A DNA stretch of 64,000 nt from Bacteroidia bacterium (GTDB taxonomy: Bacteria > Bacteroidota > Bacteroidia > UKL13-3): the NCBI GenBank assembly GCA_025454975.1, contig JALONK010000011.1, forward strand, positions 1 through 64,000. The letters are read 5' to 3'. Both the position numbers and the translations under genes were made by a program. Below, one piece after another: positions 61,085-64,000 of this stretch (its first letter is position 1; each line of letters starts with the position of its first letter). The notes beneath the pieces are model-generated. The model was not told the origin of the DNA, did not search any database, and saw only the letters and a list, made by a program, of their open reading frames with translations.

Positions 61085-61675
61085 ATGAAAAAATATCCCG
61101 AACAGTTACTGGCACAATTGATTAAAGACGGTGATGAAAAGGCATTTGAGTTTGCCTACAGCTTATATGTACCTGATTTAATTGATTATGCTTTTACAAT
61201 TTTAAAGGATATGGGAGAGGCAGAGGATGTGGTACAGCAACTATTTGTTCAACTGTGGCTAGATAAAGCAACAATTATGATACACACAACCTTAAAAGGA
61301 TATTTGTATAAATCAGTTCAACACCGTAGTTTGAATAAGATTAAGCAACGCAATGTTAGAACAAGCCACGCATTATTCGTACAAAATAATTCGTGGCAGG
61401 TTACAGAAAAAAGTGCAGCAGACGTTGCAGAAAATAATGAACTGCAAAAAGCTCTTCATACTGCAATTAACAACCTTCCGGAACTCACTAAATCTGTTTT
61501 TACCTTGGCAAAGTTTGAACAGAAAAAGTATATTGAAATTTCTGAACAGTTAAATATTCCTGTTAAAACTGTAGAAAATCAAATGGGTAAAGCCTTGAAA
61601 TTATTAAGGAATAACCTAAAACATTTTTTGCCATTATTTTTATTGCATATAATATTACCTACCCTTGGAAAATAA
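61085..61675 (+). CDS. ECF-type RNA polymerase sigma factor
   Basis: 196 residues. Sigma-70 region 2 (about 14-90: EKAFEFAYSLYVPDL, EAEDVVQQLFVQLWLD) and region 4 (about 115-175: LTKSVFTLAKFEQKKYIEIS, then IPVKTVENQMGKALKLLR) are present with no region 3. It belongs to the Bacteroidota family of FecI-like sigma factors, controlled by a FecR anti-sigma. A membrane-like C-terminal helix (FLPLFLLHIILPTL) is present, common in these factors. Its stop overlaps the start of the FecR gene by 11 bases. Confidence 0.94.
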   Translation: MKKYPEQLLAQLIKDGDEKAFEFAYSLYVPDLIDYAFTILKDMGEAEDVVQQLFVQLWLDKATIMIHTTLKGYLYKSVQHRSLNKIKQRNVRTSHALFVQNNSWQVTEKSAADVAENNELQKALHTAINNLPELTKSVFTLAKFEQKKYIEISEQLNIPVKTVENQMGKALKLLRNNLKHFLPLFLLHIILPTLGK

Positions 61676-62639
61676 GCCGGATATAAATGATATTGATGAA
61701 TTGCTAGCCAAATATTTTTCAGGTGAAGCAACAGCTGATGAGGCTTTGCATATTCATGAATGGAAAAATGCAACCGATGGTAATCAAAAATATTATAATC
61801 AAGTTGCAATGATATTTAATCATAAGCAACCCGTTACCGATGTTTCAAAAAATTATAAAATTATTCAAGCACAAATAAAACAATCTGTTGTGCATAAGGT
61901 AATACCCATCTGGTATAAAGTAGCTGCTACTATTACCTTTTTTATATTTACAACACTAGCTGTTTTATGGTTTGTAAAATATAATACTTCAATTCCATCA
62001 CAAACCATCACTGCTGAGAATGTTAAATCAGTATTCTTGCCGGATAGTTTATTTGTAACCTTAAATAAATCAGCAAGTATTACGTATGATGATTCGTATA
62101 ACAAAACCAATAGAAAAATTATCTTAATCGGTGAGGCCTTTTTTGATGTTGATACTAAAAGTAAAATACCCTTGGTTATTAATGCTGGAGGTTTACAAAT
62201 AACTGATATTGGTACTTCTTTTAATGTGAAAGCAAACCAAGCTAACGATACCGTAGAAGTTTTTGTAGTAGAGGGCATAGTTGAATTATATAACGATAAG
62301 GAACGAATGCGGGTATATAAAAACGAAGTAGCTTATTATATAAAAAGTACAAAACACTTATTTAAAACCGGCAACTATTCTAAAAATGCTATTGCTTATA
62401 AAACACATACATTTGATTTTAGAAATGCATCGCTGGCAGATGTTGTTGCAACCATTAATCAAGTTTATGGTAACGTAATAGTATTGGCCAACTCAAAATT
62501 AAATGATTGTTTAATAAATGTTGAATTTAAAGACGAATCGCCAGAAACTATAGTTATGGTTTTAGCTGAAACCTTAGGCTTAAGTTATACCAAGAAGGAG
62601 GCATACTTTGAATTGAATGGTAAAGCATGCAACGAATAA
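61665..62639 (+). CDS. FecR family anti-sigma factor
   Basis: 324 residues from the TTG at 61665, since an in-frame stop at 61650 and the absence of any ATG for 40 codons leave no other early start. N-terminal anti-sigma region (1-80, DELLAKYFSGEATADEAL) in the cytoplasm, a membrane helix (about 86-104, KVAATITFFIFTTLAVLWFV), then the periplasmic FecR domain (about 120-220, GEAFFDVDTKSKIPLVINAG) and a C-terminal DUF4974/STN-like region (about 245-320, SLADVVATINQVYG). It holds the ECF sigma factor inactive until the outer-membrane partner signals. Overlap of 13 bases with the next gene's start indicates coupled translation. Confidence 0.93.
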   Translation: MENKPDINDIDELLAKYFSGEATADEALHIHEWKNATDGNQKYYNQVAMIFNHKQPVTDVSKNYKIIQAQIKQSVVHKVIPIWYKVAATITFFIFTTLAVLWFVKYNTSIPSQTITAENVKSVFLPDSLFVTLNKSASITYDDSYNKTNRKIILIGEAFFDVDTKSKIPLVINAGGLQITDIGTSFNVKANQANDTVEVFVVEGIVELYNDKERMRVYKNEVAYYIKSTKHLFKTGNYSKNAIAYKTHTFDFRNASLADVVATINQVYGNVIVLANSKLNDCLINVEFKDESPETIVMVLAETLGLSYTKKEAYFELNGKACNE

Positions 62640-64000
62640 TTGTTTTTATTTTTCTATTGTCTTTTATTATTGATGGTAATGCACAACATTCATCAGTTTT
62701 AGATAAGAAGGTAAGTATAGATGTTCAACAAAGAACTATTGAAGAAGTACTCGAACTTATAAGTAAACAAACAGGGCTTTCCTTTTCTTACAATCCTAAG
62801 GTAATTGATGTAACCAAAAAAGTATCCTTACATGTTGCCAACAAGCCTATAAAAACAGTACTAACAATGGTTTTAGGCATTAATGTGGCCTTTAAAATTC
62901 GTGGACATTTTATAATATTAACGCTTAAGAATAATGTTAAACCAAAGTATAAAGTGGTTAGTGGTTATATCTCTAATAATAGTGGTAATGCCATTTCATC
63001 TGTAAGTGTTTATAATAAACAACAACAACTCGCAACTCTGTCTAATCAACTTGGCTATTTTAAATTGGAATATCCTATAAATAGCTCTGTAACTTCATTA
63101 AAGATTGCTAAGGTTGGGTATTACGACACCATTATTGTTATTCCTCCAAATCATCACGTTGATGTGGTGTTGAAAGAAATTGTACAGGCACGAAATCACC
63201 TTAATGATCAAGAAGATGATTCCTCTTTTTCTTTTGTTATGGCCAAGCATCTTCCGGATACATTAAGCTCAAGTGAAGCCATTGAAACTGATAGTCTGAT
63301 TTCAATGAATGAAAAAATACGTAACTTTTTTTTGAATGAAAAATCAATTTCTACCTATAAAAATATTACCGATACTTTTTTCAAACAGTTCCAATTGGCT
63401 TTCGTGCCGATGATAAGTACGAATGAATTATTAACGGCAAATACCATTAATGATTTCTCTTTTAGTGTTTTGGCCGGGTATAATAAAGGAGTAAATATGG
63501 CGGCTGTTGCCGGATTGGCAAATATCATTAATGGAAAAGCATCATATAGTGCTACTGCCGGATTATTTAACCTAATAACTGATACAGCAAAAGGATGCAT
63601 GGTAGCCGGATTATCAAATATTCATTCCGGTTACGTAAATGCTGTGCAGGTAGCTGGAATTTCAAATGTTAACACATCTGATGCCAAGGCTATACAAATT
63701 GGTGGGGTATTTAATATAAATACAGGTAAGATGGATGGCATACAAATCGGTGGTGTATTTAATCAAGCAAATGCAGATACCATTACCATGCAATTAGCAG
63801 GAATCACAAATATTGCAAGCGGACATATTGAAGGCGTTCAAGCATCGGGTGTATTGAATATTTTGCATGGAAGCATTACAGGAGCACAACTTAGTGGAGT
63901 TGTAAATATTGCAAATGAAGTAAATGGTGTACAACTCGGTTTAGTCAATATTTCAAACCAAATAAACGGTATACCAATAGGATTGTTAAGTTGGAGTGCA
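62627..64000 (+). CDS. STN-domain protein with LA_2272-like surface repeats (3' end outside window)
   Basis: The frame is open from the ATG at 62627 to the end of the window (458 residues visible, incomplete). A signal peptide (1-19, MQRIIVFIFLLSFIIDGNA) is followed by an STN (secretin/TonB short N-terminal) domain at about 27-95 (SIDVQQRTIEEVLELISKQ, LSFSYNP), a CarboxypepD_reg-like domain (about 106-190, VVSGYISNNSGNAISSVSVY), a linker, then at least eleven 14-16-residue repeats of GxQxGGxxN-type (about 289 to the end) as in LA_2272-family surface-repeat proteins. STN domains pass a signal to FecR in TonB receptors; here the usual plug and barrel are not seen. The overlap with FecR supports one signalling operon. 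Confidence 0.88.
   Translation, partial: MQRIIVFIFLLSFIIDGNAQHSSVLDKKVSIDVQQRTIEEVLELISKQTGLSFSYNPKVIDVTKKVSLHVANKPIKTVLTMVLGINVAFKIRGHFIILTLKNNVKPKYKVVSGYISNNSGNAISSVSVYNKQQQLATLSNQLGYFKLEYPINSSVTSLKIAKVGYYDTIIVIPPNHHVDVVLKEIVQARNHLNDQEDDSSFSFVMAKHLPDTLSSSEAIETDSLISMNEKIRNFFLNEKSISTYKNITDTFFKQFQLAFVPMISTNELLTANTINDFSFSVLAGYNKGVNMAAVAGLANIINGKASYSATAGLFNLITDTAKGCMVAGLSNIHSGYVNAVQVAGISNVNTSDAKAIQIGGVFNINTGKMDGIQIGGVFNQANADTITMQLAGITNIASGHIEGVQASGVLNILHGSITGAQLSGVVNIANEVNGVQLGLVNISNQINGIPIGLLSWSA
63491..64000 (+). repeat. LA_2272-like protein repeats, about 48-base period
   Basis: At least eleven degenerate units of 14-16 residues, including AVAGLANI, MVAGLSNI, VQVAGISNV, IQIGGVFNI, IQIGGVFNQ, MQLAGITNI, VQASGVLNI, AQLSGVVNI and VQLGLVNI. 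The core is [VI]Q[LIV][GA]G[VIL].N, with Asn at a fixed place. Such short alternating repeats suggest a beta-solenoid or barrel-like surface fold. The last unit (IPIGLLSW) is cut near the window end. Confidence 0.85.

Follow-up and report, generated by a model that had tools for sequence, protein, structure and literature searches.

An ECF sigma/FecR operon of Bacteroidia with the STN signalling domain on a repeat protein and a neighbouring TonB-dependent receptor without STN

The first 64,000 nucleotides of contig JALONK010000011.1 of a Bacteroidia bacterium (assembly GCA_025454975.1; this stretch is called the window throughout) end within an operon that encodes an ECF sigma factor, a FecR-type anti-sigma regulator and a protein that combines an STN signalling domain and a CarboxypepD_reg-like domain with 16-residue repeats (in the following: STN/repeat protein). 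The next gene encodes a full TonB-dependent receptor that lacks the STN domain. The operon is probably a split cell-surface signalling system (we put this at roughly 60%), in which the repeat protein donates the signal and the receptor is its partner and probable target.

Operon layout

All genes of the operon are on the forward strand. The sigma factor gene (61085..61675, 196 amino acids) belongs to the Bacteroidota subfamily Sig70_bacteroi1 (TIGR02985, 135.9 bits, cut-off 126.4), and its product matches Sigma70_r2 and Sigma70_r4 in profile searches. It overlaps by 11 bases (61665..61675) with the FecR gene (61665..62639, 324 amino acids), which in turn overlaps by 13 bases (62627..62639) with the STN/repeat gene. 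The latter occupies positions 62627..64000 and is still open at the window end; on the contig it is complete, with a stop at contig position 64453 and a product of 608 amino acids. Gene order and overlaps agree to the base with the first-pass annotation of the window. FecR starts at a TTG; an alignment with relatives agrees with this start, and there is no in-frame ATG close by.

The overlaps suggest that translation of the three genes is coupled, and tight coupling appears to be conserved among relatives: 71 of 106 pairs of FecR and STN/repeat genes overlap, a number that is an overestimate as it is based on the longest open reading frames. The lengths of the overlaps vary among relatives, however, and conservation of the exact 11 and 13 bases was therefore rejected.

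The FecR protein matches both FecR (PF04773, 44.1 bits, 2.9e-11) and FecR_C (PF16344, DUF4974, 38.1 bits, 1.6e-9) above the respective cut-offs. Hydropathy analysis indicates a single membrane helix (residues 86-104); the FecR domain is periplasmic, and the FecR_C domain is at the C-terminus, where anti-sigma factors of the FoxR/PupR type have an STN-like domain. The STN-like nature of the FecR_C domain is established for PupR and FoxR, and FoxA and PupB attach through their signalling domains to this STN-like part of the anti-sigma factor (PMC11637429). In one genome of the same genus the FecR gene is split into two frames (L037:1445-2658), either by decay or by an assembly error.

The receptor gene (796 amino acids) is outside the window, at contig positions 64495-66885, and starts 41 bp past the stop of the STN/repeat gene; a search for terminator-like sites in this 41-bp gap found none. 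Also beyond the window, at contig positions 68955-72154 (L003:8455-11654), an open reading frame with similarity to DUF5615 (PIN-like) lies between two others that we take to resemble kynurenine 3-monooxygenase and kynureninase; all three are on the strand opposite to the operon.

Domains of the STN/repeat protein

The STN/repeat protein starts with a predicted signal peptide (residues 1-19, 62627..62683), which is its most hydrophobic 19-residue stretch and forms a helix at residues 2-15 in the structure model. The STN domain follows at residues 28-100 (62708..62926, Pfam core 51-100): the profile search, on which the first-pass annotation had staked this assignment, gave 45-46 bits for PF07660 with a cut-off of 28.4 (E-value 8.4e-12), and the fold matches too. 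The CarboxypepD_reg-like domain (residues 111-168, 62957..63130) resembles the N-terminal extension (NTE) of SusC; it had also been predicted. CarbopepD_reg_2 is below its cut-off of 32.2 in this protein (24.5-25.1 bits; PF13715, E-value 2.9e-5), but 28 of 30 relatives match it with E <= 0.001, and there is a fold match with a TM score of 0.80. A linker of mostly low model confidence (residues ~176-245, 63152..63361; pLDDT <50 at 176-201 and 211-224) separates the two domains from about eleven 16-residue repeats of the LA_2272 type (residues 284-457, 63476..63997). The repeats are followed by a C-terminal beta domain that ends at residue 608.

Pfam scans of the complete 608-residue protein and of 30 relatives identified neither a plug nor a TonB barrel. 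The first-pass annotation was thus right that FecR has an STN partner other than a TonB receptor, and also in proposing a different kind of sensor: the STN domain is on a repeat protein, and this architecture is conserved. When the STN-CarboxypepD part is used alone as a query, it matches the N-termini of SusC-type receptors; this tandem forms the N-terminus of the TonB receptor transducers of Bacteroidota. Sequence searches of the PDB with the STN/repeat protein returned NTE domains and weak STN relatives, and nothing else. The final residue is phenylalanine in 25 and leucine in 5 of the 30 relatives, as is usual for outer-membrane barrels.

Repeats and predicted fold

Self-identity of the repeat region peaks at lag 16 (25%) and lag 32 (22%), values that were reached by none of 2000 shuffled sequences. 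Ten units are anchored by an asparagine (N299, 315, 331, 347, 363, 379, 395, 411, 427 and 441) and one further unit is degenerate (GIPIGLLS). Pooled from 30 relatives, 225 units show the pattern G-x-Q-x-[AG]-G-x-x-N per 16 residues, and the number of repeats differs among relatives. The count agrees with the first description, namely at least eleven units of the LA_2272 type. The NCBIfam model LA_2272_repeat reaches only 16.5 bits in the 608-residue protein (cut-off 25) but matches 19 of 30 relatives with E <= 0.01 (best 2.4e-15).

The AlphaFold2 model of the STN/repeat protein, made from an alignment of 30 sequences, has a pLDDT of 84. Foldseek searches with this full model returned the SusC NTE (9hfj, TM 0.80 over the target) and the signalling domain of PupA (2a02, TM 0.70 over the target, rmsd 2.8), with both folds at the N-terminus of the model; all other matches were weak and were to the outer-membrane barrels PcoB, NspA, OmpA and OmpX. 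The C-terminal part of the model has about eight long strands. A model of the repeats only (pLDDT 91, pTM 0.83) shows one 7-residue and one 4-residue strand in each repeat, in a regular arrangement. It found no confident match in the PDB (best E-value 0.86) or in BFVD (0.012); almost every weak PDB match is a beta-helix (LpxD, GlmU, tapirin), and the repeat domain is therefore tentatively regarded as solenoid-like. That the repeats themselves form a barrel was considered as an alternative. The full model gives residues 246-275 a higher confidence than the model of the repeats alone, which hints that they may pack on the C-terminal strands. We infer a protein whose C-terminal beta domain probably anchors it in the outer membrane and which carries a solenoid-like repeat domain.

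The neighbouring TonB-dependent receptor

The first-pass annotation covered the sequence up to the window end; what follows gives no support to a system in which no TonB receptor takes part. The 796-residue product of the next gene has a CarboxypepD domain, a plug (PF07715, 24.8 bits, cut-off 23.9) and a barrel, and hhalign aligns the entire protein, also in its barrel, with the other TonB receptor of the genome (probability 98, 673 columns). Profile searches found no STN domain on it, nor on any of 140 receptors of the same family. After the CarboxypepD domain, the receptor has the sequence NEVIV, and most relatives have EVVV, EVVI or EIVI there; by comparison with DEVVV, the TonB box of Bt1763 (PMC7782687), this stretch is likely to be TonB-box-like. 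Given this neighbour, the proposal that the system senses envelope assembly rather than nutrient import lost its support for the operon of the window: import is the simplest theme in this lineage.

Conservation across the class

In the class, the order sigma factor, FecR, STN/repeat protein, zero to two further genes, receptor is widespread. The STN/repeat protein as the only query retrieved no related loci, probably because its fast-evolving repeats give poor patterns, and a search with a receptor alignment succeeded. Among 395 genomes, the receptor profile gave 24 receptors a score of more than 1000 bits (the next at 910), and these were defined as the closest; 22 of them have an STN/repeat gene at a distance of at most 9 kb, and 21 lie downstream of it in the same orientation. 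One of the two exceptions is at a contig edge (L075). The other (L092:5301-12751) has full flanks and no STN/repeat gene nearby; it lies beside a gene for a 1593-residue SprB/PKD adhesin with a type IX secretion tail. In a second sample, made of contigs from named genomes (Algoriphagus, Aquiflexum, Spirosoma, Larkinella, Niastella, Flavihumibacter, Fluviicola and others), 31 of 49 receptors are near an STN/repeat gene and several of Algoriphagus are not; linkage is thus common, not universal.

The STN/repeat profile matches 78 of the 395 genomes with E <= 1e-60, and some of these matches are repeat proteins without STN. Operons of sigma factor, FecR and STN/repeat protein recur in other genomes: FecR is directly upstream of the STN/repeat gene at 106 of 108 loci and is preceded by the sigma factor gene at 99. 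The open reading frames are mostly 536-723 amino acids long and share one architecture in numerous families and in named isolates, and there are residues that are invariant in 30 divergent STN/repeat sequences. On a plasmid of Hymenobacter volaticus (L267:4920-6724), the STN part (194 amino acids, annotated as DUF4974) and the repeat part (387 amino acids, annotated as hypothetical) are adjacent genes, either a natural split or a frameshift.

Two further genes recur at these loci. A further repeat protein, which lacks STN and is homologous to the repeat part (hhalign 2e-45), is often encoded between the STN/repeat gene and the receptor gene; a second repeat protein is present at 23 of 70 loci. 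A gene for a head-GIN protein (DUF2807) is within three genes on the same strand at 36 of 108 STN/repeat loci, often between the STN/repeat and receptor genes (for example L078:7528-8247, L083:8872-9696 and L143:9070, also L267:2975-3706); the operon of the window has none. The head-GIN protein may be part of the system.

Distances between corresponding parts were compared in 55 operons. Distances of the STN domain correlate with those of the periplasmic part of FecR when sigma factor distances are removed (partial r 0.49) and less so with those of the receptor (0.27), and distances of the C-terminal beta domain correlate with those of the receptor when STN distances are removed (partial r 0.47); the permutation p-values ignore shared ancestry, which inflates both 0.49 and 0.47, so that only the ranking is informative.

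Proposed mechanism and alternative explanations

In the split system that we favour, FecR would hold the ECF sigma factor at the inner membrane. The signal peptide would send the STN/repeat protein to the periplasm, with the C-terminal beta domain as an anchor in the outer membrane, and the STN domain would touch the STN-like C-terminal domain of FecR and thereby govern sigma release. The STN-CarboxypepD tandem is joined here to an LA_2272 repeat/beta protein, probably of the outer membrane, rather than to a TonB receptor, and transport would be left to the separate STN-less receptor. This receptor is probably a target of the sigma factor and, at the same time, a partner that the repeat protein would monitor for its loading or presence. 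A wider version of this reading is possible, at somewhat worse than even odds: the proteins could be widespread split transducers of Bacteroidota, in which a repeat-built outer-membrane protein signals to FecR and reads a separate TonB receptor by contact within the outer membrane, and which elsewhere read surface states unrelated to transport.

The main rival is a stand-alone sensor, in which the LA_2272/beta protein itself would sense a state of the surface or envelope (assembly, adhesion, lipid or polysaccharide) and signal via STN to FecR, the receptor being just one regulated output. We consider this rather unlikely, but several observations speak for it. Many STN/repeat genes have sigma factor and FecR and no receptor of the same family nearby: such a receptor is in the same-strand operon for 36 of the first 70 STN/repeat genes (an approximate fraction, since these loci are a mix fetched partly via the receptor and partly via the STN/repeat protein), and it is absent from the neighbourhood of 25 of the 101 genes in the tree set. 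The frequent presence of the second repeat protein and of the head-GIN lipoprotein would also fit. Furthermore, linkage is labile: a quick tree of STN/repeat operons requires at least 13 switches between operons with and without the receptor, and together with the 31 of 49 in named genomes this means that the receptor is not an obligate partner. On the other hand, in the supported clade that holds the gene of the window the receptor is kept in 15 of 15 operons, nearly all of the closest receptors are tied to an STN/repeat gene, and nothing points to an envelope state as the signal.

It is improbable that the STN/repeat protein is instead a brake, a feedback or decoy protein that keeps FecR occupied, with the actual signal given by TonB receptors with STN that are encoded at other places in the genome. 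STN domains can shield an anti-sigma factor from proteolysis without a signal (PMC11637429), which would suit such a role. However, a Pfam STN search of the genome matches the gene of the window alone, and the one other receptor with an STN domain, which is below the Pfam cut-off, has its own FecR and sigma factor. This second of the two FecR systems found in the genome (C63, L004:5551-10587) is classical, with STN on the receptor, and forms a built-in contrast to the operon of the window: it encodes the TonB receptor, a DUF4249 lipoprotein, FecR and, last, the sigma factor, a gene order that is the reverse of the operon in the window.

A decayed TonB receptor, or a chance or misassembled fusion without function, to which the differing repeat numbers might point, is refuted by the conservation of the STN/repeat gene in length, architecture and invariant residues, together with its confident structure model.

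Comparison with known systems

Systems of the FecI/FecR/FecA type (Fec of E. coli; Fox, Fpv and Pup of Pseudomonas) have in common with the operon described here an ECF sigma factor, a FecR whose C-terminal domain is STN-like (presumably so here) and an exported STN partner, all encoded together. In these systems the STN domain is on the TonB receptor, whereas here it is on a separate LA_2272-repeat protein and the neighbouring receptor has none.

The closest precedent, and the single known STN protein without a barrel in the literature searched, is VreA of the PUMA3 system of Pseudomonas aeruginosa, which is likewise encoded with an ECF sigma factor and a regulator (PMC2729926). VreA has about 240 amino acids and a TolA/TonB-like C-terminal domain (PMC2729926); here, the STN domain is followed by CarboxypepD, 16-residue repeats and a beta domain of the outer-membrane type, with no TolA/TonB-like tail, and the operon also encodes a full TonB receptor as a protein of its own. 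SusC and TonB receptors in ECF loci of Bacteroidota share the N-terminal STN and CarboxypepD (NTE) domains and the control by ECF and anti-sigma factors (PMC7782687). In SusC proteins, however, the NTE precedes STN and is combined with a plug and a barrel (PMC7782687), while in the STN/repeat protein the order is STN, then CarboxypepD, with neither plug nor barrel. The LA_2272 surface repeat family (NCBIfam NF047436) has the 16-residue pattern in common with the protein, and in the literature searched no member with an STN head is described.

Neither an operon of sigma factor, FecR and STN/repeat protein nor a fusion of STN to LA_2272 repeats with a separate STN-less receptor was found in the literature, in a search with subscription papers mostly outside its reach; relatives are annotated as hypothetical or as DUF4974 proteins (in a Hymenobacter record). 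This suggests that, while cell-surface signalling as such is known, a two-protein sensor with STN on a repeat protein is apparently undescribed.

Implications

In textbook cell-surface signalling, sensing is coupled to a transporter because the STN domain belongs to the TonB receptor. Here, sensing and transport would be on two proteins, and this is so in many families of one class; at about half of the related loci in the class sample, an approximate fraction, the operon has no transporter of the same family. For the LA_2272 repeats, the operon gives a functional hint, namely signalling to FecR. It may also offer a tractable system to study how the state of a receptor reaches FecR when the STN domain is detached from it.
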